Below, piece by piece: positions 2,745-23,597 of a DNA stretch of 23,597 nucleotides (positions are counted from its first letter, which is position 1; each line of letters starts with the position of its first letter). Both the position numbers and the translations under genes were made by a program. Location: positions 1-23,597 of the IMG/VR virus record IMGVR_UViG_3300043775_000707; one strand, 5' to 3'. The notes beneath the pieces were generated by a model that had not been told where the DNA came from, searched no databases, and was given only the letters and a program-made list of their open reading frames with translations. The stretch comes from a virus.

Positions 2745-3563
2745 ATGGCTTGTAATTCAACATATTGTATAAGAAATACCGGTAATATCACGTATGATGA
2801 TTACTATATCAGTGGTGGGACACATAATTCAAATCTTTATTGGGTAGGTCAATCAAATGGTCTATTTATCTATTACTCAACAGAAGACACTCAATGGTGT
2901 TTATCATCAAATTTGGATGGGTTTTGTTTATTATCAGGAAAATCTCCTTGTGCGAGCGAATGCCCTGATTTATCCTACGCATATTTCTCATCAGGAATGT
3001 GTTTAACACCAACTCCATCACCAACAAATAATTGTAATTCGTTGGATTTTGTAGCTTTATTAGAATGTGATATAATCCCATCACCATCACCAACTCAAAC
3101 TAAAACACCAACACCGACACCAACCGTCACACCATCATTAAATTTATGTTTAACAATTAATATTGATGCAACAATTGAGAGTACTTCACCAACTCCGACA
3201 CCAACACTAACACCAACACCAACATCCTCATCAATAATAGAAAGAAATTGTAGTTTTGCGTCGCCAATAACCTATAATATCATCGATGATAATATAATAT
3301 GTCCTCAAAGTTATTTATTTAAAAATTGTTATAATAATGAGATATATTCAACAACAAATCTTACAAGCTCAATTGGTAATATTTCATTGACGAAATATCA
3401 AGTTTATTTAGCCATGGTAGATAATGTTAGAAAATGTATTTCATATTATGAAAAGAGCGACACTACTTTAGGTGGTTACGATATTGAATTGATTAGTGAA
3501 CCTTTTGGGTTGATTAGTCAAAATGGTTGCGATTATTGTAACCAAGAGTTAACAATACCATAA
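2745..3563 (+). CDS. Cys-rich structural protein with Pro/Thr linkers
   Basis: This 272-aa protein is modular. A Cys-rich N-terminal part (1-86, ending in a CLLSGKSPCASECPDL-type pattern near 61-76) is followed by three low-complexity linkers of SP/TP dipeptides (87-94, 112-130, 148-163) separating short Cys-containing segments. A C-terminal module (about 190-272) has FKNCYNN, a central Cys (C231) and a final CDYC (C262, C265). The same module type, with CxxC at its end, closes the 857-aa SprB-repeat protein on the other strand. Such extended Pro/Thr spacers suit fibre-like virion proteins that hold small binding domains away from the particle; this role is inferred. No signal peptide or membrane segment is seen. 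It starts directly at the stop of the 71-aa gene. Confidence 0.7.
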   Translation: MACNSTYCIRNTGNITYDDYYISGGTHNSNLYWVGQSNGLFIYYSTEDTQWCLSSNLDGFCLLSGKSPCASECPDLSYAYFSSGMCLTPTPSPTNNCNSLDFVALLECDIIPSPSPTQTKTPTPTPTVTPSLNLCLTINIDATIESTSPTPTPTLTPTPTSSSIIERNCSFASPITYNIIDDNIICPQSYLFKNCYNNEIYSTTNLTSSIGNISLTKYQVYLAMVDNVRKCISYYEKSDTTLGGYDIELISEPFGLISQNGCDYCNQELTIP

Positions 3564-6667: not shown

Positions 6668-9241
6668 TTAAATAGGTTTGTAATTTATACAATTAGTACA
6701 AGTTGTGAATACCTGATTTAATACTGGTGTAAAATAATTTCCGGAAATCCTTATCACAGTAAATAATGGATTTAATAATGGATAACCATTTGATATATAT
6801 CTAAATTCCCAACAAGTATTATCATTAGTTTTCCTTAAAATTTGACCAGGAACAATTGTAAGTCCCGGTAACTCTTGAATAACATATTGATTAGTGTTAG
6901 AACAATTTCTATATACATAGTATTTTTGTGGTGGCGATGGTGTAACAGTAGGTGTTTTCGTCATTGTTGGAGTTTGAGTTGGAGTTTTAGTAGGTGTCGG
7001 TGATAGAGATGCTCCTGGCGTCTGAGTCATTGTAGGTGTTCTAGTCATTGTAGGTGTTCTAGTCATTGTAGGTGATGGTGACGGTGATGGTGACGGTGCC
7101 GAACCACAATATTGACACGAAATAGTATAACTAATACGTAACTCAATAACAACATGGTTTGGAACTAAAAATTCCTCATCACATTTAGTTATAATTTGAA
7201 TTTGATTATCAACAGAGTCGATTATAGTTTCCCCAATTTGGTCAAAACTATCCACCATCCCCTTTAATTCATCATAAAAATAATTATCATATGGATAATC
7301 ATTTAATGAATAACTAGTATAAAAATCATTAAATTTTTCCTCTTCACCAATTGTAACAATTAAGCTAAAAATAGCAACATCTAAAACACAATTAGTAAAC
7401 TCCGACACTAAAGTATAATACCCATCATAATACATTTGATATATCCCATATTCACCTAACTCCCCAATATCTTCAAAATTACTATCACAAATAGTGTAAG
7501 ACTCATAAGACGATAATTTATCATACCCATAAATTGTTATTGAGTTTTCTTTAACACAATTATTCGAGTCAGTCACAGTTAATGTATATGTACCAGCACC
7601 TAAATTAGTTATACTATAACCGGTTTGCCCATTCACATTAGGACTCCATTGTAAATCAAATGTTGGTGTACCACCAGTTATTAATACATTAATTGTTCCG
7701 TCAGAACCATTTATTAAATCAGTTTTAACTAATATAAACCCAACATTCTCGGATGACTCTATTTCAAAATCTTTAGTTTGTTGACACGGAGTTGGGCTAG
7801 AATCTCTTACCTGAACAGTATATGAATCCGAAACTAAATTAGTAAATGTTACGGAACTTAATGACGTACCTATTATTGATTGAGACCCTATGTCAATTGT
7901 GTATGGAGGTTTACCCCCTACTACCACAACATTAACAGAACCATTAGGTGCATTACAAGTCGTTCCTGTAGTTAAAACATTAACCGTATATAAGGACTCA
8001 TTTATGATGGTATATGTGTTGGTATAAACACACACACCATTTGAAATGGTTAAAATATATGTGTCAGATTTTAAATTATTAAATGACCAACTTAAACTAC
8101 TAGTTATATTTTCTATTGAGTTGTTATTAGAATCTGTCAATTTATAGGTAATATTACCATTAGTACCATTAAGGAGTATAGATATAATACCATTTGAATT
8201 ACTACATTTTGAATTAGTAATATTAATTGAAACAACATTAAACCCTGAAGGTGTTTGTAATGTTGTTGAACTAACAAAACTACATAGACCAGCATCTTGG
8301 ACATATACCGAAATAATTCCTCCAGGTACATTAGTAAAAGTATATTGGGGTTCAAACGAAACATTTGATTCTCCAGTTGAGGCTGAATAATAATATGGTG
8401 TTGTACCGCCAGTTACAGAAACCGTTAACTCACCATTGTTTGTAAAACAACCTGGACTAACAGATGTAAACCCTCCTAAACCTATTTGAGGTACTTTAAT
8501 AACATTAACACTTTTAGATATTACACACCCTGAATTATCTGTTACGGTAACACTATATTCCCCATTTGTTAATCCTGTAATTGATGATAATGTACCCCCA
8601 TTAGACCATAGATAAGTATATGGTGGGCTACCCATTAATTCTGTTACAAATATCTTACCTGAGTTAACATTACAACCAGCATCATTAACAACATAAAAAT
8701 CATAATTTAAAGTGGTTGATGACTTAATTATACAAGTTTCTGATTTACCTGTACATCCAGCACCATCGTCGGCAACAACATAATAAGTTCCGGCCGATAA
8801 AGAATTAAAAGAAAAGTTGGAATTTAATGTAGACCCTGAAGATAAATATCCACTATTACTTTCATATAAATAATAACTTGCAACACCATATTGATTTTGT
8901 GTTTGAGCGAGTATAGAACCATTATTAAAATTACAAGTAGTATTTCGTTGGTTTATTATATTAACACAAGTACCGTTCGATATATAAATATTTACCGGAA
9001 GTATTGATACACCTGGACTATTACATGAATCAAGAATATTAAACGAGTATGTTCCCGTTGATAAACCATTAATACCATATTCGGTCACACCAGCGCCTAA
9101 CGGTATTATTCCATAATCTGGTGTTAACCATTCTATTGTATAGTCAGGAGCGGACCCCTGAATATCAATTAAGAAAGACCCTAATGAGAGATTAGAACAA
9201 TCTCCTTCTATACTAGATATATATGATAAACTACAAGCCAT
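6668..9241 (-). CDS. Tail/fibre protein with seven SprB-like repeats
   Basis: This 857-aa protein has seven tandem Ig-like units resembling the SprB repeat (PF13573) of flavobacterial gliding adhesins: about 1-88, 91-172, 179-248, 253-329, 334-413, 418-496 and 500-570. The clearest is the third (GSPPYTYLWSNGG, then TGLTNGEYSVTVTDNSGC). An Asp/Tyr-rich segment follows (571-714), then a 56-residue Ser/Pro/Thr spacer (715-770), then a C-terminal module (773-857) with RNC, CWEF and CTNC. There is no signal peptide and no recognisable T9SS sorting domain, as expected for a virion protein folded in the cytoplasm. It is the last gene of the baseplate operon and overlaps the stop of the wedge gene (TAATG). 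The probable role is a distal host-contact spike or fibre; this is inference from domains and position. Confidence 0.75.
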   Translation of the reverse strand: MACSLSYISSIEGDCSNLSLGSFLIDIQGSAPDYTIEWLTPDYGIIPLGAGVTEYGINGLSTGTYSFNILDSCNSPGVSILPVNIYISNGTCVNIINQRNTTCNFNNGSILAQTQNQYGVASYYLYESNSGYLSSGSTLNSNFSFNSLSAGTYYVVADDGAGCTGKSETCIIKSSTTLNYDFYVVNDAGCNVNSGKIFVTELMGSPPYTYLWSNGGTLSSITGLTNGEYSVTVTDNSGCVISKSVNVIKVPQIGLGGFTSVSPGCFTNNGELTVSVTGGTTPYYYSASTGESNVSFEPQYTFTNVPGGIISVYVQDAGLCSFVSSTTLQTPSGFNVVSINITNSKCSNSNGIISILLNGTNGNITYKLTDSNNNSIENITSSLSWSFNNLKSDTYILTISNGVCVYTNTYTIINESLYTVNVLTTGTTCNAPNGSVNVVVVGGKPPYTIDIGSQSIIGTSLSSVTFTNLVSDSYTVQVRDSSPTPCQQTKDFEIESSENVGFILVKTDLINGSDGTINVLITGGTPTFDLQWSPNVNGQTGYSITNLGAGTYTLTVTDSNNCVKENSITIYGYDKLSSYESYTICDSNFEDIGELGEYGIYQMYYDGYYTLVSEFTNCVLDVAIFSLIVTIGEEEKFNDFYTSYSLNDYPYDNYFYDELKGMVDSFDQIGETIIDSVDNQIQIITKCDEEFLVPNHVVIELRISYTISCQYCGSAPSPSPSPSPTMTRTPTMTRTPTMTQTPGASLSPTPTKTPTQTPTMTKTPTVTPSPPQKYYVYRNCSNTNQYVIQELPGLTIVPGQILRKTNDNTCWEFRYISNGYPLLNPLFTVIRISGNYFTPVLNQVFTTCTNCINYKPI
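7026..7074. repeat. Tandem 18-bp repeat in the Pro/Thr linker
   Basis: The unit gtcattgtaggtgttcta (plus strand) occurs at 7026-7043 and 7044-7061, with a partial third copy at 7062-7074. On the minus strand it encodes alternating TMTRTP hexapeptides of the spacer. Gain or loss of a unit keeps the frame and changes only the spacer length. Confidence 0.9.
7071..7094. repeat. Tandem 12-bp repeat in the Pro/Thr linker
   Basis: Two perfect copies of ggtgatggtgac (7071-7082, 7083-7094), encoding Ser-Pro pairs at the start of the spacer, adjoin the 18-bp array. Confidence 0.85.
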
Positions 9242-12200
9242 TAATTACATAAAATTTCAAAATTTATTCCGACATTTAATTCAAAGTTAACGTCAGTTGA
9301 GTTTACAGAACATATCGTATTATAAACCACTATTTGGTTAAATTGACCACCATCTTCTACGATAATATTATTTCTACTAAAATAATACGCATAACCATAA
9401 TTTAGTAAACTTTTTAAACTATTTACTAAAGCGACCGTCCATACACTATTACTAGGTACACTCATACTTGTGGTAAGCCCTGACCCTACAAAAAATGGGT
9501 CTTTTATAATATCGTCACCATTAAGTCTCATTTCAACATACCATACACTTTTTAAATTTTCATACAAACAATCATCTAATTCGTAAGTTGTACCTAAATT
9601 AGCATTTGTTGTACTTAAATAAGTATTTAATGTATTACTTAAAACAACACCAAAAGTGTCATCCGGATACGCATCACAAGACACTGATTGAATCGGACAA
9701 TCATATGTAAAAATATTTGATGTTAGAGAACAAGGTCTACAAAGAACAGGAATAAAATTACTACCTCCTTGTCTTCTCCATACAAATTTTTGTCTATGAA
9801 AAATAGAATTTTCATATCTAACGCCCGTATTCCATATGGTTGTTGCCGGTATCATTTGTTCAACTAATCTAACCCAATAATCACCAAGACCATTAACATA
9901 TTGAATCATCGTTTGATAATTAAAATTATTATTCTCCAATCCAACAAGTTTTTCCGATTCTAAATATTTCCAATAAATAGACTCTAATGTTGGATAACCC
10001 ATTGTTTTACCATCAGTAACATATTGTCTATTTCTAACATTAATTGTATTTAACCAAAAAGTCTGAGCAAACTCAAAAAATGTTTTATTCTTTGGTTGTG
10101 GATTAATTACCGTATTATCAACACCACTCCTATCAGGATAAATTGACTCTGTATTTGGAATACAATAAGTTGGTTTAACATAATTTAACCCCTCGTTTGG
10201 TATCGGGAAATTAAATTGTCTTGACATTACCCAAACATCATATAACAATCCTTGACCAGGATTTAAAAATAAATCAGTATTTTTAGCATTTAAAACTAAT
10301 TTATCACTTCCCGTATAATATCTTGCATTATAATTACCATCTAAATTTTGTCGTAAACCAATTTCATTATCAACCCAACTTTTATTATTGTCAATAGTTT
10401 GGGTAATGTTATACCCTAACGGCATAAACGGAAATTTAATAAATCTATCCAAATATTCTTGACCATAAGTATATGGACTTAATGTTGTTTGATAATCAGG
10501 GTTTGACCCTACAAAAACACTATTGGTAAGATTAACTTCTTCCGGTGCTCTATGTTGAGGTGTTGATTCAAACCATCCACTACCTTTTTCATAATAATAA
10601 TCTTCCGTATTTGGAGGTGTTGATGGGTATCCTTCACTATCAATAGGGTATTCACTTAATGAAACATTAACATCTTTTATTATTGTTGTTGAGGTAAACC
10701 TTATGTATTCTACACCCTGAAATCTAAATGTATTACCAACATCCGTTGTTGAGACATTTTTAACATATGTACCTCCAGATATTGCAGCATAACTAGAATT
10801 AAAATCACTAACACTAATTCTTTGGTCCGCCAAATATATGTATTCGTTAAAATCAACTAACGCATCCGGAGCTCCAATTAATCTTAATAATATCTCAACA
10901 GATTTTCTCGTTCCTTTAGATTTAAACAAATAAGCCGAATTAAGAATCAAATTTTTATAATATTGGTAATTTAATTCATCCGGAGTTTGTTGGTCACTAC
11001 TCCCCTCAAATTCAGGAACATTTTTGTTTTTCTCACCAAAAACTGATGTTAAAAATTCATCATTCGTTATTGGAGATATATTAGTATTCCACCCTAAAGT
11101 TTGCGCTAAATTTTTTAATAATTGAGATGGGATATCATTACCCACATTATAATTAACCGAATTCATGTATGCTAAAGCGTCTATGAATTTTTTTGTTTCG
11201 TCAAAACTTCTACCATATATTTGTAGAACAGACTCCATTTTTTGACCTATAGTATCAAAGTCTTTAAACGCCCCTGTCGTTAAAAATCTTGAAATTAAAT
11301 TTGTTTTATATAAATCAAACGATTCACTTAAACCATTTAATGTTGTCAAATAGTTGGTAAAGGATGGTGTAATAATATCAAGATTCCAATTACCATATAA
11401 TGGCCAAGTAACATTTTGATTTAAAACATAATATGTACCATCATCAGCATCTGCTGGTACTTGAAATGTTGCAGTATATTTTGGTACAACATTTCTATTT
11501 AATAAAAATCTTTGAACCTCATCTAAACTTTCATTAAACACCTGATTAACTTCAGAATCATTAGGTCTAATAACTAAATCATCATAAGTCATAGATTGAC
11601 CCGAAAATGGATTACCCTTAACATATATTTTTAATACTCCCGAAGACAATGATGTTGTTGGGACTATCGCAACCACATCAAATCCATTATTGTTATAATA
11701 TAACGAATACTTTGCGTATTGCATCGTCATATTTCTTAACACCGATACTTGAACCTCCCTTAATTGTAAATTTCTTGTGGCGTTAACCGTAAAATCAACA
11801 TCAAAAGGGTTTCTAATTCTAGAAACATTTAGTTCAAAACTAGTTTCATCATCAGAACAGATATATGTGACATTTGATGCCGTTTCACCAGTCACATAAT
11901 TTTCATCCATTAAAGTCACCTCTAATGCCGCAGGAAATTTACTAATAATAGTCTCAACTGATGTTGAGATTCTTTTAACCATTGACCCATATTGGGTGAA
12001 ATTGGTAACTTGGGTAAGGTCGAAATTTGGATATACTTTGAAATTATTCTCAAATATTAATCTAGATTGAGCAACACTACTAATCCCAAGACCGTCCAAA
12101 TTAATTGGTTCTGAAAAATTACCAGTGTTAAATGTCCTGTTGTTCTTTTCAGTAATTGATGTTGTAAATTCAAAATTCCCCTGCGTTAAACCACCTCCTT

Positions 12201-12288
12201 GGACTAATTGGAAACCAACTAAATCATCGGAAAATGTACCAGCACCTGTTGCCGATTGTGGGGGACAAGTATATTTTATTAACGCCAT
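9241..12288 (-). CDS. Baseplate wedge protein, P2 gpI / T4 gp7-like
   Basis: This 1,015-aa protein carries a segment (about 335-480) with the pattern of contractile-tail protein I: a helical stretch RFLTTGAFKDFDTIGQKMES, LLKNLAQTLGW, then KNLILNSAYLFKSKGTRKSVEILLRLIGAP. In the contractile-injection scheme gpI corresponds to T4 gp7, partner of gp6 in the wedge. The region after it ends in YWVRLVEQMIPATTIWNTGVRYENSIFHRQKF (quoted in parts: about residues 797-830), a style I associate with large wedge proteins of T4-like phages. The N-terminal third is beta-rich and unassigned, and the C-terminal tail (about 845-1015) is Cys-containing. It overlaps the 302-aa gene upstream (TAATG) and the SprB-repeat gene downstream (TAATG). 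The gp7 equivalence is reasoned from the gpI-like core and the gp6-like gene in the same cluster. Confidence 0.65.
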   Translation of the reverse strand: MALIKYTCPPQSATGAGTFSDDLVGFQLVQGGGLTQGNFEFTTSITEKNNRTFNTGNFSEPINLDGLGISSVAQSRLIFENNFKVYPNFDLTQVTNFTQYGSMVKRISTSVETIISKFPAALEVTLMDENYVTGETASNVTYICSDDETSFELNVSRIRNPFDVDFTVNATRNLQLREVQVSVLRNMTMQYAKYSLYYNNNGFDVVAIVPTTSLSSGVLKIYVKGNPFSGQSMTYDDLVIRPNDSEVNQVFNESLDEVQRFLLNRNVVPKYTATFQVPADADDGTYYVLNQNVTWPLYGNWNLDIITPSFTNYLTTLNGLSESFDLYKTNLISRFLTTGAFKDFDTIGQKMESVLQIYGRSFDETKKFIDALAYMNSVNYNVGNDIPSQLLKNLAQTLGWNTNISPITNDEFLTSVFGEKNKNVPEFEGSSDQQTPDELNYQYYKNLILNSAYLFKSKGTRKSVEILLRLIGAPDALVDFNEYIYLADQRISVSDFNSSYAAISGGTYVKNVSTTDVGNTFRFQGVEYIRFTSTTIIKDVNVSLSEYPIDSEGYPSTPPNTEDYYYEKGSGWFESTPQHRAPEEVNLTNSVFVGSNPDYQTTLSPYTYGQEYLDRFIKFPFMPLGYNITQTIDNNKSWVDNEIGLRQNLDGNYNARYYTGSDKLVLNAKNTDLFLNPGQGLLYDVWVMSRQFNFPIPNEGLNYVKPTYCIPNTESIYPDRSGVDNTVINPQPKNKTFFEFAQTFWLNTINVRNRQYVTDGKTMGYPTLESIYWKYLESEKLVGLENNNFNYQTMIQYVNGLGDYWVRLVEQMIPATTIWNTGVRYENSIFHRQKFVWRRQGGSNFIPVLCRPCSLTSNIFTYDCPIQSVSCDAYPDDTFGVVLSNTLNTYLSTTNANLGTTYELDDCLYENLKSVWYVEMRLNGDDIIKDPFFVGSGLTTSMSVPSNSVWTVALVNSLKSLLNYGYAYYFSRNNIIVEDGGQFNQIVVYNTICSVNSTDVNFELNVGINFEILCN

Positions 12289-14309: not shown

Positions 14310-15116
14310 TTAAGGATTAACATATTCATACCATTTTATGGAACTAGTCGTTCCCACTCTAACATCATTATTGTTAATATCTTTATCAAAAATTTGATAT
14401 GTTTTTTTATCTAAATCTAATTTCACCTTATAATAAAAATTTGAATCACTAAATTGAAATAAGGTTGGTTTCAACAATATTTGGGGAGTTTTACTCATTT
14501 TAACATATACTCCCAGTCTAGCATCAAAGAATTTTGCACTCATATAAAAAGTGTCTATATCTATAAAATCTTTTTTTCTTAACCAATATAAAAAGAATCC
14601 TTCTTTATCACCCACAAAATCTAATTGATATGACGGTATTTTTATATTAATATTTGAACCATATTCTGAAATACTAACAGATTCTGTAAAACCCTGTTGA
14701 ACCGGAATAATTACCGTGAAATAATTTGTCTGAGATTTACCTTCAGTTGTATCGTAAAAATCCAATTTAAAAAATGATTTAGTAAATGGTTTTTCATAAT
14801 AATACACCTCTGATGATGTAAACCCTTCTGTTAAATAACTAGTTACCCAATCAACAGATGATGAGGTTTTAATATTCACAGACTCATCAAAAAAATGAAA
14901 ATCATATTTAATATCTGTCTTTGTATTTTCATTATATGGTTCATGACTAAACCTAAACACCTCAAAATCGTAAGCGGTTCCAATAATTTCCTCAATAACC
15001 TCATGTTCATATATCTCAATACTGTCGTCTCTACCATAAAAGTCCCATTTTAACTCTATTGGTAAATCAATATACTTGTCGGTTGCCGGTAAAACAAATT
15101 TAAATTTATTACTCAC
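14310..15116 (-). CDS. Structural protein of the baseplate operon, unassigned
   Basis: This 268-aa protein is rich in Tyr, Phe, Asp and Lys, mainly beta in character, without signal peptide, membrane segment or enzyme motif. It uses a GTG start (15114-15116) that overlaps the end of the preceding gene by eight bases; no in-frame ATG lies nearby, and the residues SNKFKFVLPATDKYIDLP follow at once. It is the only gene in the operon with a non-ATG start, which could lower its output relative to its neighbours. I do not recognise the family. Its place between two structural genes with no gap is the only evidence for a virion role. Confidence 0.55.
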   Translation of the reverse strand: MSNKFKFVLPATDKYIDLPIELKWDFYGRDDSIEIYEHEVIEEIIGTAYDFEVFRFSHEPYNENTKTDIKYDFHFFDESVNIKTSSSVDWVTSYLTEGFTSSEVYYYEKPFTKSFFKLDFYDTTEGKSQTNYFTVIIPVQQGFTESVSISEYGSNINIKIPSYQLDFVGDKEGFFLYWLRKKDFIDIDTFYMSAKFFDARLGVYVKMSKTPQILLKPTLFQFSDSNFYYKVKLDLDKKTYQIFDKDINNNDVRVGTTSSIKWYEYVNP

Positions 15117-16929
15117 AATTATCTATTATTGGTTCAGCTATTATGTTCTGTTCATTATAATTAGTACCTTCTGGTATTATTCTAAAAATTATATTCTTAT
15201 ATGGGTAATGAACCCCATTTAAGAAAGGATAATCAACACCATTTCCTTTAGGGTCAATATAACCATAAGTGTATTTATCTCTCCATATAAATCTACCTTT
15301 ACTTTCCGAGTAATAAGAATAGTATGGAATATCAGTAACATTTATTTTATCACCCTCCTCAATGTAATCAGAATATTCACTTATCGTAATACTATTGTGG
15401 GGTTGGTAATAATAACCATAAGAGTTTGTTGTTTCCATTTGAAAATTTGTTGAACTCCTAGGTTTTCCAACATTAAACACCGTTGGATTATAAGTTAATT
15501 TGTGGTATAAATTTGATATAACTCGTTCTTTCTGTTCATAATCATTCCACTCACAAAAACCCCCATCTATCACATCACCTTTCTTTAAAGAACCCACATA
15601 TGAAAAATTTATTTTACTTCCATTAAGTTGTACACCTATAGATGTTGTATACGAACTCATTGGGAAATTAGTGTCAGATAATCCATTACTATCTTTCCAC
15701 CAATCAGTAGGTAATTTAGTTGTGGGGTCTAACGGTAAGTTAAAATTATAACCTTGTTTCATACCATATACACCTAACCCAGGACCTTTTGACCTACCAA
15801 ACATTAAACCAAAATACCCTTTCCAAATTGTTGTAAAAAATAATTCAGTTATTGGTCGTTTTTGATTATCTCTAATTGGACTAATATCAATGTCGGAATT
15901 AAACGATAAAGTATATGACTGCGAACCTTCTTTAATTGACACCCTTGACAATTTATTTGGTGTAAACCCACTACTTTCAAATTTTTTATTAACACCAAAA
16001 ATATTTTGGTCAAAACCCGCATTCACCAATACAGCATCATCAGGATTTGTTAATAACTTATGTCTTCTCACATAATATTTTGAAATGGTTTCATTAGGTA
16101 TTAAACTGTTTATTACCCTCCTAAATGTTCCTTTTTTATCATCATTAAAAGTAGTACCGGTAAACCCAACATTAAATAAATTAAAAATATATTCATTACT
16201 ACCATACGCCCCATCACCTAAAGAATAAACCTCAAATGTGTCCACACTATTATAGATGAACGCTGACGATAATTTAACAAATTCACCAACAGATAACCCA
16301 TGTTTAATAGGACACCTAAAAGAAATTGTATCTAAACCATTATATGTCGTATTTTCAATAATAAACGGAATACCGGTTGACGCCGACCAACTTAAAGTTT
16401 GTTTTGATTTACTCTCAATAGCCTGAAGTTGTTTATTATAATTATTTTCAAATGGATAACTAACAAAAAAATTCCAATTATAAGTTGACGCACTTTTATT
16501 AACAAAGGTTAAATGATTGTTAGGTGGTTGAGTATATCCACTAACATTATAATCACTTCTAATAAAATCAAACTCGTGATATTGGGGAAATCCTGACCAA
16601 GAAACAGCATTGGGATTAAGTTTACATTGGTCTATAGATGCTTGAGTTTCATTAACATAAACCAAATTATTTTCTAACGGTGTATAATTTGTTAATCCAG
16701 TATAAGAATTTTTAAATAAAATAGAGAATTTACAAGAAGGTCTGAATACTCCAGATTTTTGTCTCTCATCGTCAAACACTTGTGATAAAGAAATATCAAT
16801 ATTCCTATCAAATTCAATATTTTCTTTATTCGTTTGAACTAAAGGAACATTAAACATCAAATTAGTATTTGATGCTGTTTTATATCTTAACGACCCTAAA
16901 ACAACTCTAGTATCCGTTCTATTACCCAT
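15109..16929 (-). CDS. Large structural protein of the baseplate operon, unassigned
   Basis: The chosen start gives 606 aa beginning MGNRTDTRVVLGSLRY. A longer frame would start at 16977 with 16 extra residues, but that would overlap the preceding gene by 47 bases. The ATG at 16927-16929 lies one base after that gene's stop (TAATATG), the same arrangement as two other junctions here. The protein is rich in Tyr, Asn, Phe and Ser, predominantly beta, with no membrane segment or catalytic motif. Segments such as FSILFKNSYTGLTNYTPLEN and SYGYYYQPHNSITISEY have the look of virion beta-structure. I cannot assign a T4 counterpart; position between the giant protein and the 268-aa protein suggests a baseplate or tail-tip component. 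Confidence 0.6.
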   Translation of the reverse strand: MGNRTDTRVVLGSLRYKTASNTNLMFNVPLVQTNKENIEFDRNIDISLSQVFDDERQKSGVFRPSCKFSILFKNSYTGLTNYTPLENNLVYVNETQASIDQCKLNPNAVSWSGFPQYHEFDFIRSDYNVSGYTQPPNNHLTFVNKSASTYNWNFFVSYPFENNYNKQLQAIESKSKQTLSWSASTGIPFIIENTTYNGLDTISFRCPIKHGLSVGEFVKLSSAFIYNSVDTFEVYSLGDGAYGSNEYIFNLFNVGFTGTTFNDDKKGTFRRVINSLIPNETISKYYVRRHKLLTNPDDAVLVNAGFDQNIFGVNKKFESSGFTPNKLSRVSIKEGSQSYTLSFNSDIDISPIRDNQKRPITELFFTTIWKGYFGLMFGRSKGPGLGVYGMKQGYNFNLPLDPTTKLPTDWWKDSNGLSDTNFPMSSYTTSIGVQLNGSKINFSYVGSLKKGDVIDGGFCEWNDYEQKERVISNLYHKLTYNPTVFNVGKPRSSTNFQMETTNSYGYYYQPHNSITISEYSDYIEEGDKINVTDIPYYSYYSESKGRFIWRDKYTYGYIDPKGNGVDYPFLNGVHYPYKNIIFRIIPEGTNYNEQNIIAEPIIDNCE

Positions 16930-16930
16930 A

Positions 16931-19900
16931 TTATATTGTTGTATTAGTATTAACCCATTTTTTAGTAAATCTGTCAAAAGACGATTTACCCGTTTTTAAC
17001 CCAAAATAAAAATGAAAAGGGGCACCAACAGTAATATCATTAGGTTCATTCCCACCATTTTTATCCCATGAATTTACCGAAGCATCCAAAACATAATTAT
17101 TATTACTCGTATCACTTACTGAATAAATATGCGATTTAAAAAATTGCGTTTGACTAGCAACTTTAGTTCTGAAATATCTTGACGCTCCATTTAATCTATC
17201 CAAATCTTGGTATTTATAACTAAAAAAAGTATCACCTAATGGTTCAGTACTCCAATCATTTTTTTGAGTTCCAAAAATGTTATCACTATCTTGAACCCTC
17301 CATTGATAAAATGGTACTAATTGACTAAAAACATTAAAATTACTAACCCCACAACTGGACCCAACAGGGGTCCCATTATTAATTATTGTTCTTTTTGGTG
17401 AAATAAAATCCCGTATTCTAGTGTCTGATGAAAAGAAAATCCCAAAAATAACACTATTATCACTATCACTACCATTATAAAATACTGGGTCCTGACTATT
17501 ATCTACATCAGGATAATTTATCCCTTCAAAAGGCGATACACCCAATTCAGAATTAATTGATGTCATTTGAGAATAATCACCATCAATCATTAATTTATCC
17601 CTACTAAAAAAAGAAAGAATCCCAACGCCCGTTAAATTTTTTAAGAAAGATGTATTTGCCAATCTAGTAACAATTAACATATTTAATAATTCAGAAACAT
17701 CCCCAAATGTTGTTGAGTTTAAATCTTTTATAACATATCCATCAAAGTCATCAGACATTATAATTTCTTGTAGATAATCACTTCTAGGTCCTAAATCCAA
17801 CATAGTTGTTGGTGTTTTTAAATTATACGAATTACCTCCGTTATCATTTTTATCACCAATAAAACCTTCCCCTAATTTATATGGACTACTTCTATAGAAA
17901 AAATTATTATTATTTGGGTTAAACACAATAACATCTTTACAGTACCTATTTATCGGTGAATTTGGCGGTATTGAATCCGGACTACTATAAATCACATCAT
18001 TCTTAAATGTAAATGCATATAGAGTACCATTAATCCAATTATTAGTAAATAAATGTGAAAACACATTTCTACATGCCGCAAATATTGTTTGGATTCTACC
18101 CGTCCATTCAACCACCCGTTGAATGTCGCTAATCAAACTTATAACTGGAGATGTCATTAAAACATAACATCCATTAATAAAATCTGTTTTACCTCCATCA
18201 CCTTTCCAACAACCATTTGATTTTGGTTGGACCTTAATTTCATTATTTTCATTATAATAACAAGTTAATGGAGCCATATTACTACCACAACTAAAGGAAT
18301 CAATTATTGTAGTAAAAACTTTAGGTTCCTCAGTAGTATCATACGAACCTACCGTAAGATTTCCTGACCCCGTCGCAGCAACCGTTTGACTAGTTGACGA
18401 CCCATCATCCGATATAGTAAAAACTGAAAATTGAGTATTTGTATGTAAAGCAAAACTATTATTAATATTATTTTGGAGACTGGTTGATGTCGGTAATCTA
18501 TCTGACCTCATAATTATTTGTGTTCCAGATACACCTAATTTAATATTCATCCTTAAATTTATTGGATATTTTGGAGCGTAGTAAAAATTAATCGCCCTCA
18601 TTGGTTCAACACCTTCAACAGCCTTTATTATATCTAGTTTTTGATAAAATAAACTACCACCATCAATATTTTCACCAGGAAAATAACCTCTATTATTTGA
18701 CTCCGAATTATATCTACCAAATCGTCTATAATATAGGTTATAATTCGGACCCCCGCCGGGTCTAAATTGAAATTCTTGAACCGTATAACCTTCTTTCCAT
18801 TCAACAATAAACCCATTATTCCCTTGAACCCCAATTTGTGCACCACCTCCAGAAGAGTTGGATATCCTGGTAATACCACCCCCAAAGTCATATTGTAATA
18901 AATAATAACCTCTTAAAGAGTTTGGTGGATAAGTATTGACGGGATAATTTCTAACATTAAAGAAATAATCTAAACGATTCGCATATGGCATTCTCAAAAA
19001 TCCGTCGTTATTTCCTTGGAAACTTAAAGTAAGAGAATTGTTTGCTTCAATATTTGCAAATATTTTGACAATAATCCTATCTGCGTTTGCAAATGTGGTT
19101 GCAATTGTAGGTACACTAATAAAATACCTGTTCGCGATGCCCATTGTTAATTCACCAACAGGTTGTACTGGACTAGTACCTAATAAAATTTCAGCATCTT
19201 CAGAAAAATCATATCTATAAATTTTTACATATATTGACGAACCTCCAAGAATATTACTATCACCTTTAAATGCCCAAATTTGTACAGTAGAAGTTATTGC
19301 GGGAACACTAGAATTTAAATTTGGTAATGAAATTGGTGTCATAAATCCAGCCATATAAATATCCGTTTGTGGAGGCATGTTATCACTTGTACTATTTGTC
19401 CAAGTTTTATTAACTCTAAAGTAATTACCCGTTAATGCAAGATTGGTTGTATCACCAAGTGTTGGTGGAGTGTAAGTTACATCAGTATTATAAGTACCAG
19501 GCGTAAACGATATATTTTCTTTATCTAATCTAGAATAAAAAGTATGTAAATTAGTTGAGAAAGGGATAAAACTGAACGCCCCACTTATTGATGGTTTAAA
19601 ATGAAATGAATCATAATATAAATTTTGAGTAGTCAAACCGTCTAATGATATATTATCAACTAAATCATGAGTAACACATTTTAACCCCCCCTTTATAGGA
19701 TGATTTAATTTAAATCCCTTACCTTGAGATTTACTTTCAGTAATAATTGTTGATGCATTACCAAAATCATAACCAAATAAACGACTTAAATCATAACTTA
19801 CACTAACCCTAGATGAATTGGGGTCAACACCTCTAACCAAAAAAAGAACTCTTTGTTTATTTTGTTGATTAAATCTTAATACTGGAGAAAAATATCTATC

Positions 19901-22693
19901 ACCACCGTCAAAATTAGTTCTATCATTCCATTCATTAATACGATAAAACGACATTGTATTACTTAGAAATCTACTATTAAACGAATTAAAATTACTCCAA
20001 TCATTAGGTACTGATACTGTTGTTGTATTACACATACCTGTATATTCAACATATGTCATACCTGTAATAACTTGGAAATATTCAACATCCATTGGAAATT
20101 TAGCGTAATTAACGTCTCCGGATAATTGAGATATATTATACACAGTTCTAATGTTAGTGTTATCTCCTATAGGATTGGCATAATCAACATTTATTGTACC
20201 ATTAACATTAATTGGTGTCCCCTTCATCGAAAACGTCCCATATTCATTTAAAGACACACCATCTCCGTTAATATTTTTATCTTGAGACAAAGAAATGTCT
20301 TGAAAAGCTATAATCCCCCCTGACACAATATTATTTGATGATGGTCCACAAACAATCGCGATAACATTATCGAAATGAAATTTACCTGCATTCAGTTCCG
20401 GTTGGAACCTAACCTTTATTCTATTAACCCCGCCACCAGGATTATCTGGTGAATCATTAAAATATTTTCCTTTAGTATTAAAAAGATTTAATCTTTCCGA
20501 TACTGTTAAACTAGATGAGAAATAATTATATTGAATAGTATCGTCTGTTGGTGGTTCAGCGGTGGGGTCCCTATCCTCTGTTGTTGAAGAAAACATTTCC
20601 GGAACTCTAGTTGTCGGTGTTAATGTTTCATCGTCGGGAGAACCAAGAGCATCACCAGCAAAAATCGTCTGATATATTAAATCTTGTGTGTAAACACCAG
20701 TATCACTCTTCCTATTAAAGTAATTACCCATTATTTGATATTGACTTAAAATCGATGTTCCACCTCCTTCAACAACAGTTATTCCCTCGGTATCTACCTC
20801 CAACGCTTCAACACCTGTTGTGTCTGTTGGTAAACTTCCCGGGTCACCACAATCACAAAAAGAACAATCAGGGTAAGATAAATTAGGTATTTTAATATTT
20901 TTTAATTTATCAGGAAAAGATAAAATATCATTCGCAATTTTTTTAATATCCGCAACTGACATACAGCGCATCTTATCTCGTAATCTTCTAAACATTCTAC
21001 CACCAAGTGCTCTAGGTAATTTAGCCAATAAACCTAATATACCTCTAATGATATTACAAATAATTGACACTATCGCTAATATAGGTATAAGAATTATAAG
21101 ACAAATAATGGCCAAAACTTTTAAAACAAACCATAGAATATGTACAACAGGAATTAAAACAATTAAAATTGGTCTAAATAAAAATAACATTATCCAAAAC
21201 ACAAAATAAATTAAATCAAATCTAAATACTGAATCATTCGCAGGAAATTTATTATTATCACTCTCACAAGCATCATCTAAAATATTTTTTATACTAATAA
21301 TCTGATTAGAAAAACTACCATTCCTATATTGGTCAATTAATTGCGACACAGTATAAACTTTATTATATTGCATTAAATAAAATGTATCCTCACAATTAAT
21401 AGCGGATTGTATATCCGAATAATCATTCCAATCTAAACTAAATGAATATGATTTTAACGCTTCTCGATAATTCGTATTATTTACATTTGATAATGGGTCT
21501 TGAGTACTATTATCCCAACCGTATTCTCTAATATTAGGTACTAAAAAATATCCTCGTCTAACTGTCTCAGATAATGATGGTGATTGATTCCATTTTACTT
21601 TAAACCTATATTTGGCTTTAGTCGCTATTCCTTTTTTCGGGTCATTAGATATAACTTGTTCACCAAATTCATTAGTTATTAAATAATCCAAATTCATTGG
21701 TACATCCAATAACCAAGTACCGTTTTCATCAATCACTTGACCACCTTCTTCTAAATCAACAGTTTCAAGGATAGGGTATCCATCAGTATCTTTAAATATA
21801 GTTTGTCGTATCGCCAATATTTCTCCCGGACCAACAACTAAAGAACATTGAGCCCCTGATTTAACTTTTGGTTTACAATTTCGTTTAACAACATCATCAT
21901 TATTTGATGATATGATTGACCCCATAAAAATAGATGTTGGTCTAATATCAATACTAGCCTCAGATGATAAGTCAAAATCCGTTCTGGTTATACCCAAATT
22001 ACATATTTCAGGTTGACCCCATAATGGTTCAACCGTTATTACCTTATTAATAGAGATAATTTGAGGTAATTCCCGTAAATTAGTTGATGATTTAAAATCG
22101 ACCCCCGCAACTTGATTTGGTGTTGCAATACCCATTCTAATTAAATCTTGTGGAGATAATGAAAATTCACCTATATCAGATAAATCAACATCTAAAACTA
22201 TTGTTTGAGAACCAGGCGGCACCCCAAAAATCATATAATCACCACTATTATTAGTTGTTGTTGTGTATTTATAATACTTGTCAAAAACCTCAATCAAAGT
22301 TGGGTCAGTTAATACATCTTGTCTAGTAAAAAAAGTTCCTGTTGGATTATGTCCACTATGTGATTTAGTGTATGGTAGTAAATTGTATCTATATCCGTCT
22401 TCATTTAAGTCAATTAATGATTTATAAGGATATAATTCAGATATAACAGGATTTGATTCGTCCACACTGTCTAGTGGAATAAATACCGATACTTTAGCGT
22501 TTGGTATACCAAATCCATTATTAATACTAACACGACCAACAATAACCCCATAATCGGAGCATTGTCTAGTATAGATTTGACTTTGCAATACTTTCAAAGA
22601 AAGTATTTCCAAATACTCAAATTCTTGGTCTATTAAAACTTTAATTGAGGTATCAACACCGGGTTTGGTTCTTATTCTAAATGAATTGGACAT
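16931..22693 (-). CDS. Giant 1,920-aa baseplate-operon protein with hydrophobic block
   Basis: This is the largest gene in the window. The N-terminus has a carboxypeptidase-regulatory-like beta domain at about 48-170: YGVIVGRVSINNGFGIPNAKV, then TNNSGDYMIFGVPPGSQTIVL. At 492-556 (nucleotides 21026-21220) lies a strongly hydrophobic block able to form two or three membrane passes (for example YFVFWIMLFLFRPILIVLIP and AIICLIILIPILAIVSIICN), flanked on its C-terminal side by basic residues (GGRMFRRLRDKMR, 564-576). A Cys cluster, PDCSFCDCGDPG (608-619), follows. The remaining 1,300 residues are beta-rich and Asn/Ser/Thr-rich. There is no N-terminal signal peptide. Its place after the gp6-like gene suggests a baseplate component that could reach the host membrane during injection. 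That role is inference; a scaffold-like or periplasm-contacting protein is an alternative. Confidence 0.7.
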   Translation of the reverse strand: MSNSFRIRTKPGVDTSIKVLIDQEFEYLEILSLKVLQSQIYTRQCSDYGVIVGRVSINNGFGIPNAKVSVFIPLDSVDESNPVISELYPYKSLIDLNEDGYRYNLLPYTKSHSGHNPTGTFFTRQDVLTDPTLIEVFDKYYKYTTTTNNSGDYMIFGVPPGSQTIVLDVDLSDIGEFSLSPQDLIRMGIATPNQVAGVDFKSSTNLRELPQIISINKVITVEPLWGQPEICNLGITRTDFDLSSEASIDIRPTSIFMGSIISSNNDDVVKRNCKPKVKSGAQCSLVVGPGEILAIRQTIFKDTDGYPILETVDLEEGGQVIDENGTWLLDVPMNLDYLITNEFGEQVISNDPKKGIATKAKYRFKVKWNQSPSLSETVRRGYFLVPNIREYGWDNSTQDPLSNVNNTNYREALKSYSFSLDWNDYSDIQSAINCEDTFYLMQYNKVYTVSQLIDQYRNGSFSNQIISIKNILDDACESDNNKFPANDSVFRFDLIYFVFWIMLFLFRPILIVLIPVVHILWFVLKVLAIICLIILIPILAIVSIICNIIRGILGLLAKLPRALGGRMFRRLRDKMRCMSVADIKKIANDILSFPDKLKNIKIPNLSYPDCSFCDCGDPGSLPTDTTGVEALEVDTEGITVVEGGGTSILSQYQIMGNYFNRKSDTGVYTQDLIYQTIFAGDALGSPDDETLTPTTRVPEMFSSTTEDRDPTAEPPTDDTIQYNYFSSSLTVSERLNLFNTKGKYFNDSPDNPGGGVNRIKVRFQPELNAGKFHFDNVIAIVCGPSSNNIVSGGIIAFQDISLSQDKNINGDGVSLNEYGTFSMKGTPINVNGTINVDYANPIGDNTNIRTVYNISQLSGDVNYAKFPMDVEYFQVITGMTYVEYTGMCNTTTVSVPNDWSNFNSFNSRFLSNTMSFYRINEWNDRTNFDGGDRYFSPVLRFNQQNKQRVLFLVRGVDPNSSRVSVSYDLSRLFGYDFGNASTIITESKSQGKGFKLNHPIKGGLKCVTHDLVDNISLDGLTTQNLYYDSFHFKPSISGAFSFIPFSTNLHTFYSRLDKENISFTPGTYNTDVTYTPPTLGDTTNLALTGNYFRVNKTWTNSTSDNMPPQTDIYMAGFMTPISLPNLNSSVPAITSTVQIWAFKGDSNILGGSSIYVKIYRYDFSEDAEILLGTSPVQPVGELTMGIANRYFISVPTIATTFANADRIIVKIFANIEANNSLTLSFQGNNDGFLRMPYANRLDYFFNVRNYPVNTYPPNSLRGYYLLQYDFGGGITRISNSSGGGAQIGVQGNNGFIVEWKEGYTVQEFQFRPGGGPNYNLYYRRFGRYNSESNNRGYFPGENIDGGSLFYQKLDIIKAVEGVEPMRAINFYYAPKYPINLRMNIKLGVSGTQIIMRSDRLPTSTSLQNNINNSFALHTNTQFSVFTISDDGSSTSQTVAATGSGNLTVGSYDTTEEPKVFTTIIDSFSCGSNMAPLTCYYNENNEIKVQPKSNGCWKGDGGKTDFINGCYVLMTSPVISLISDIQRVVEWTGRIQTIFAACRNVFSHLFTNNWINGTLYAFTFKNDVIYSSPDSIPPNSPINRYCKDVIVFNPNNNNFFYRSSPYKLGEGFIGDKNDNGGNSYNLKTPTTMLDLGPRSDYLQEIIMSDDFDGYVIKDLNSTTFGDVSELLNMLIVTRLANTSFLKNLTGVGILSFFSRDKLMIDGDYSQMTSINSELGVSPFEGINYPDVDNSQDPVFYNGSDSDNSVIFGIFFSSDTRIRDFISPKRTIINNGTPVGSSCGVSNFNVFSQLVPFYQWRVQDSDNIFGTQKNDWSTEPLGDTFFSYKYQDLDRLNGASRYFRTKVASQTQFFKSHIYSVSDTSNNNYVLDASVNSWDKNGGNEPNDITVGAPFHFYFGLKTGKSSFDRFTKKWVNTNTTI

Positions 22694-22764: not shown

Positions 22765-23597
22765 CTAAGAGAAATTAACGGTTTTAAGATTTTTAACTCT
22801 AATGTTAATATCTTTACTAGAATATCTAACTTGATAAGTCTGTTTTGGTTCCGCAAAAATGGTGTCATCAACTAATTCAATTTGTTTTGTTTCTGAATCA
22901 GAATACCTTTGAGATGTTTGAGATGAAGAATATTGTCCCCCCACTTTATTAAAGAAAAGTATATCAGATAATGATATTACACCGTTTTCACTTTGAATTA
23001 ATCGTCTTAATTCGGAAACATTAACATTCTCACCCATTTGTCTGTTAGTAGGTGCGAAGTAATCCGAAACAATGTTTATCACTTTAGAAATGATTGCCCC
23101 CTGATTTTGTGTATTATCTAATACAATATCAACATTAACACCTAAATCAATTACGCTAGCCACCTCAATTGATATATAATCATTAATCATTCTATAGTTT
23201 GACAAATAGTTCGCCACATTATTTTTTAAAGTATTTGAAACAATTTCGGTAAGACTACCATTTTCATCATAAGATAACATTTGGATTTTTATCTTATTAT
23301 TTTCTTCAGTTATTGAGACTTTTGCCGGAGCCCCGAATTGAGATGGCATTAATCTAATTAATGACTCATAATCATTTATGGTTACCGCTCTATTTTGAGC
23401 TGCGAAATTATAAGTAACTAAATTTCTAACTTCTTCCGTTGTTGGGTAATTACCACCACCGATTGCCGCAGTAACATTCGTACATCTCAACGAATTAACA
23501 ACACTAGTATTAATAGAATCTGATGGTCCATTAACACTAAACGAAACATTACCAATTTGAGTAATAACATTAACACCTAAATTTGAACCTGTACCCC
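22765..23597 (-). CDS. Baseplate wedge protein, T4 gp6 / baseplate J-like (5' end beyond window)
   Basis: The frame is open to the right edge (about 277 codons visible, ending in TAG), so the gene begins outside the window; a TTG codon at 23490 is not its true start. The visible part matches the C-terminal half of gp6/baseplate-J proteins: PTTEEVRNLVTYNFAAQNRAVT followed by NDYESLIRLMPSQFGAP (near the TTG position plus 17-55), then repeated alpha/beta units such as NNVANYLSNYRMINDYISIE and VNIVSDYFAPTNRQMGENVN, and LRRLIQSENGVISLSDI. In T4, gp6 dimers and gp7 form the inner wedge around the tube hub, so this gene anchors the cluster as a contractile-tail baseplate module. It is the only gene here ending in TAG; five sense codons and a TAA follow. 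Confidence 0.85.
   Translation of the reverse strand, partial: GTGSNLGVNVITQIGNVSFSVNGPSDSINTSVVNSLRCTNVTAAIGGGNYPTTEEVRNLVTYNFAAQNRAVTINDYESLIRLMPSQFGAPAKVSITEENNKIKIQMLSYDENGSLTEIVSNTLKNNVANYLSNYRMINDYISIEVASVIDLGVNVDIVLDNTQNQGAIISKVINIVSDYFAPTNRQMGENVNVSELRRLIQSENGVISLSDILFFNKVGGQYSSSQTSQRYSDSETKQIELVDDTIFAEPKQTYQVRYSSKDINIRVKNLKTVNFS

Follow-up and report, generated by a model that had tools for sequence, protein, structure and literature searches.

A giant protein encoded beside gp6 in a family of environmental phages carries a predicted membrane-type helix and is a candidate for helping DNA through the host inner membrane

The route by which contractile-tailed phages, T4 among them, get their DNA into the cytoplasm is described as 'essentially unknown' in a 2024 article (PMC11054660). 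The stretch of DNA analysed here (the window), itself a virus record of 23,597 bases, encodes on its minus strand a giant protein of 1,920 aa (16931..22693) in which a long hydrophobic block had been noticed, and the question is what such a block does in a protein of a baseplate operon. The block exists as claimed: residues 492-556 map exactly to 21026..21220 (-), 49 of these 65 residues are I, L, V, F, W or A, and 58 are non-polar once M, C, Y, P and G are included. The best 65-aa stretch of the query has a Kyte-Doolittle mean of 2.44, beyond all of 2,000 whole-protein shuffles (maximum 1.54). On the biological hydrophobicity scale, applied in a simple form without positional terms, two 21-mers had clearly negative insertion scores, residues 526-546 (-5.2) and 494-514 (-2.0), and nowhere else in the protein did a 21-mer score better than +6.9. 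Judged from sequence, the block is a membrane-type segment whose hydrophobicity lies far above that of soluble proteins and which may insert into a bilayer.

The block follows a conserved N-terminal region (residues 1-470; 21284..22693 (-)), in which mean column identity among 33 relatives is 58-80% and which includes, at about residues 44-250, a CNA-B / carboxypeptidase-regulatory-like beta-sandwich. Just ahead of the block, C476 (codon at 21266..21268 (-)) is invariant in 33 relatives, and at the helix entry the motif NKFPxND (residues 481-487; 21233..21253 (-)) retains P484 in 116 of 117. Within the block, H518 (21140..21142 (-)) is near-invariant (112/117 relatives). The earlier note had also pointed to a basic patch and a Cys cluster C-terminal of the block. 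Both are present in the query, as eight K/R in residues 557-577 (20963..21025 (-)) and as the CX2CXC motif C610/C613/C615 (20849..20866 (-)), and they part ways across relatives: the three Cys recur in 115, 111 and 110 of 117 relatives, and the cluster is conserved within the clade of the query, whereas the patch is not a family feature, the 25 aa past the block carrying a net charge of -1.1 on average in the query's subgroup. A metal site formed by C476 and CX2CXC and stapling across the block was considered and set aside; the two tend to co-occur (both 109, neither 82, mixed 32), a pattern that tracks the tree and is suggestive only. The C-terminal part, bounded by NNWINGTLY (1551) and FYFGLKTGKS (1895) (16982..18043 (-)), can still be made out in a block-less relative. 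The giant protein falls in no Pfam, PHROGs or NCBIfam family: a PHROGs search gave no match, the sole Pfam match (CarboxypepD_reg) was sub-threshold, and none of 33 N-terminal regions matched in NCBIfam.

As an AlphaFold2 prediction with 33 sequences was too weak, a model built from 116 sequences was used (mean pLDDT 80.9). It places beta-sandwich domains in the N-terminal half, with pLDDT mostly 80-94 in the N-terminal region, and behind the CNA-B-like domains one long helix, residues 494-557 (pLDDT 84-88). VIA-align of the sandwich gave a best Z of 8.7 over residues 43-252 (2.6 A over 86 residues) and identified a beta-sandwich fold resembling CNA-B, pilin and carboxypeptidase-regulatory domains; no solved phage protein with the N-terminal fold was noticed among the matches listed. 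One clear homologue was found among viral models by structure comparison, the uncharacterized protein A0A8S5LA66 of the metagenomic myovirus Myoviridae sp. ctPuP5, 34% identical across 568 columns (E 1e-44). The block had been described as multi-pass. Its membrane-type character stands, whereas separate passes are unproven, AlphaFold2 giving a single helix; a continuous helix of 64 residues would measure about 96 A, three times a bilayer, so that a model with just two or three passes may not hold.

Directly upstream of the giant gene lies a gp6/gpJ-like baseplate wedge gene that is cut by the window edge (22765..23595 (-); phrog_219, E 4e-11), and a full gp6 copy in a close relative matches Baseplate_J (PF04865). 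The wider order was read in G001, a relative of 322 kb whose giant protein is 74% identical and whose gp6 matches the 276 aa present in the window at 99% identity. One strand of G001 encodes, in this order, sheath and tail tube, a tape-measure candidate of 645 aa and two very large proteins, followed at some distance by gp25, gp6 and the giant; tube, gp25 and gp6 are supported by PHROG or Pfam matches, and sheath and tape measure are putative, being named by sequence appearance and position. The giant gene thus adjoins gp25 and gp6 in a contractile-tail cluster, the gene context of a T4-type baseplate operon, and the baseplate-operon setting proposed in the earlier note holds. A gp6 homologue precedes the giant within 2.5 kb in 224 of 230 loci and slightly further off in two more. 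Downstream, the next gene (622 aa; 15109..16977 (-)) is syntenic with the giant gene, a homologue following in 142 of 150 loci. The two ORFs share a 47-base overlap (16931-16977), and the listed TTG start of the downstream ORF may be too early, an ATG lying 16 codons further in.

Two known tail roles were considered for the giant and set aside. A separate large baseplate-type protein of 1,015 aa (9241..12288 (-)), with a 'YLFKSKGT' region, matches a 1,265-aa protein of Flavobacterium phage immuto (BLASTP 3e-5, shared motif). Because this ORF corresponds to the large operon protein of immuto, the giant is regarded as an additional protein and not as the large gp7-type wedge protein, whose place the 1,015-aa ORF appears to suit better. 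When similarity to solved gp7 chains was sought by PDB sequence search, query A1 gave no match and query A3 a single non-phage one (E 0.29), and no Pfam support was found for a Tail_P2_I domain in ORF 9241-12288. A role as tape measure protein was likewise dismissed, the place beside the tail tube being held by the different, 645-aa gene.

An N-terminal profile search of IMG/VR matched at least 592 loci, so that this large, uncharacterised family of environmental phages is widespread in that collection; its well-delimited protein, with a segment of 65 residues, makes the entry of contractile-tailed phage DNA into the cytoplasm open to testing. We collected 253 non-redundant relatives, the complete ones being mostly longer than 1,500 aa. 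Three different queries found no cultured relative in 50,697 phage records; immuto, Mel-JY01 and LR756508 have gp6 in common with the family but no family-matching ORF in the 40 kb around gp6.

All 213 non-redundant gp6-adjacent relatives that were long enough to judge carry a hydrophobic segment in the expected place, defined as a 21-mer mean of at least 1.6 inside residues 330-760, compared with 10 of 570 other ORFs of at least 600 aa at the same loci; 1.6 is the lowest value among the positives, and the clean split owes something to that choice. The medians, 2.54 for the family and 0.92 for the other ORFs, are independent of it. A 21-mer mean above 2.2 occurs in 74% of the family and in 0.2% of the other ORFs (1,067, each at least 300 aa long). 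In the 140 kb of G001 that were read the giant has the top 21-mer among ORFs of at least 150 aa (3.17; next 2.24).

The earlier note held that homologues lacking the block would speak against its proposal, and such homologues exist: four relatives without detected gp6 (L085, L087, L088, L174) all fall below 1.6, L088 being too divergent to judge well, and the block is absent in three distant relatives, none with a detected gp6 neighbour, whereas those beside gp6 all keep it. That three relatives manage without the block counts against a function in delivery. In the tree the block-less rows are ungrouped and have long branches, so that the block may as well have been lost or replaced in a few lineages as gained late. 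L085, at 745 aa a short form of the protein, retains the N-domain and the two C-terminal motifs but skips the block and most of the part that follows. The block-less loci are L085:2870-5107, L087:10001-12181 and L174 from 6004; L087 adjoins an apparent contractile sheath gene on the opposite strand, and a search for viral relatives of L087 found none.

Among 33 relatives, column identity is 29-54% in the block compared with the 58-80% of the N-domain, hydrophobicity being kept as the sequence drifts, and some relatives carry extra, fully hydrophobic stretches. The relatives form three subgroups. In subgroup A, that of the query, the helix is longest and most hydrophobic (mean 2.15), with the near-invariant H518 and Cys motifs on both sides; block length ranges from 42 to 146 aa (10th-90th percentile 52-109), and purely hydrophobic runs, judged by eye, go down to about 33 aa (in L042). 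The helix of subgroup B, the second, aquatic one, reads like LFGHIVGFINGILNIINGL. That of subgroup C, whose contigs we take from their identifiers to be rumen samples, is shorter, more polar and less hydrophobic and includes K/R. The mean hydrophobicity profile over 36 residues peaked at 100 degrees per residue in all three subgroups, none of 500 column shuffles being as strong in any of them; the subgroups are related, so these tests are not fully independent. The shared peak points to an alpha-helix with one narrow polar/small face as the common element. For the query block taken whole, a polar stripe at 100 degrees (p 0.00075) was discarded, as it did not persist at 98 or 103 degrees or in most relatives taken singly, and for this reason we relied on the group-level periodicity over 36 residues alone.

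We rank first the reading that the giant is a baseplate-associated protein whose helix would insert into the host membrane during delivery; on sequence and model evidence we consider this quite possible, while stopping short of calling it probable. A membrane role is favoured because hydrophobicity is kept despite sequence loss, because the block is extended by whole hydrophobic stretches, and because such segments are nearly absent from neighbouring genes. In large contractile-tailed phages, the N-terminal beta-sandwich region would probably dock the giant in the baseplate near gp6, and right behind it would follow the hydrophobic helix, from a few tens of residues to about 146 long, with its one narrow polar/small face. 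Several copies may keep the helix packed and hidden within the particle; upon triggering it would enter a host membrane, in all likelihood that of the cytoplasm (the inner membrane), and the polar stripes of adjacent copies could face one another or a lumen, opening a way for the DNA. Location in the virion, copy number, timing, membrane insertion and the pore are all features that we infer. The giant is in this sense a good candidate for helping phage DNA through the host inner membrane. Of the undescribed delivery device proposed in the earlier note, the baseplate operon, the membrane-type block and its conservation are borne out, the multi-pass architecture is not, and the basic patch proves not to be a family feature.

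The tape-measure proteins bear on this reading in both directions. The candidate of G001 has a best 21-mer of 1.04 and its homologues in subgroups A and B reach at most 1.14, which suggests that there it is the giant, among the tail-operon proteins, that is equipped for a membrane. The homologues in subgroup C are longer, and one reaches 1.94, which counts against the delivery reading, as does the less hydrophobic, K/R-containing helix of that subgroup. Also against it, a ring of six single helices would be too narrow for dsDNA. A stronger, family-wide version is a pore borne on the baseplate, for which several giant copies would let out long helices and line a passage across the inner membrane with their polar stripes; we regard it as unlikely.

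Ranked second, and on balance somewhat improbable, is a buried structural helix: the block would form the hydrophobic core of an oligomeric baseplate bundle and make no membrane contact, with the stripe facing solvent or a partner. Helical bundles are built around gp6 in T4, AlphaFold2 draws a single long continuous helix here, and in the second and third subgroups that helix is visibly amphipathic. However, in the query's subgroup it is hydrophobic over most of its surface, with the mean of 2.15 given above, its sequence drifts freely, unlike that of a tightly packed core, and extra hydrophobic stretches come and go.

A membrane-type segment within a baseplate-operon protein would also suit an anchor that serves, within infected cells, to build or hold baseplates at a membrane. 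The precedent is Cis13 of the thylakoid contractile injection system (CIS) of Anabaena, a tail-fibre-like anchor in the producer cell whose transmembrane domain is needed for positioning (PMC8894136). Cis13 resembles the giant as a contractile-machine part with a transmembrane domain, but it acts in the producer cell, and the two are likened by description. We found no signal for such an anchor beyond hydrophobicity. Moreover, phage baseplates are not generally known to require a membrane for assembly, and we place this third and consider it distinctly unlikely. That the giant is a membrane protein for another task (e.g. superinfection exclusion or lysis), in the operon by chance, is conceivable in that its virion location is indirect, but is very improbable given its ties to gp6 upstream and to the next gene downstream and the size of the complete relatives.

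For membrane insertion by a tail protein itself there are partial parallels. Xu et al. in 2016 (cited in PMC11476376) reportedly described a pore-forming loop in the phi29 tail-knob protein gp9, proposed to act on the host membrane. On that account, gp9 shares with the giant a long hydrophobic segment between soluble parts of a tail-tip protein; it differs in that phi29 is short-tailed and the protein unrelated as far as known, whereas the giant belongs to a contractile-tail baseplate operon. The tape measure protein of TP901-1 has hydrophobic, predicted membrane-spanning regions, the first of which is essential for infection (PMC5099701). It is likewise a phage tail protein with such predicted regions, but here the tape-measure candidate is the 645-aa protein adjoining the tail tube gene, which is without them, and not the giant.

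As to the host, G001 carries a gene for ribosomal protein bS21 (G001:C1:243337-243495 (+)) on the strand opposite to its neighbours, and in freshwater Bacteroidetes phages as large as 331 kb ribosomal protein S21 is likewise encoded on the opposite strand (PMC9723584). In the window, ORF 6668-9241 contains SprB repeats (Pfam PF13573, 1.4e-17). Together, the S21 gene and the SprB repeats point to Bacteroidota hosts, and many phages of the family probably infect Bacteroidota. ORFs 6668-9241 and 2745-3563 both have PTPTPT/SPSPSP-type repeats. The fibre-like cluster of G001 encodes a second large protein (1,329 aa; L338:4670-8659, equal to G001:C1:184670-188659, minus strand) that has an internal hydrophobic block, whose 21-mer mean is 2.24 at residue 432, as well as a DUF5977 match below threshold.
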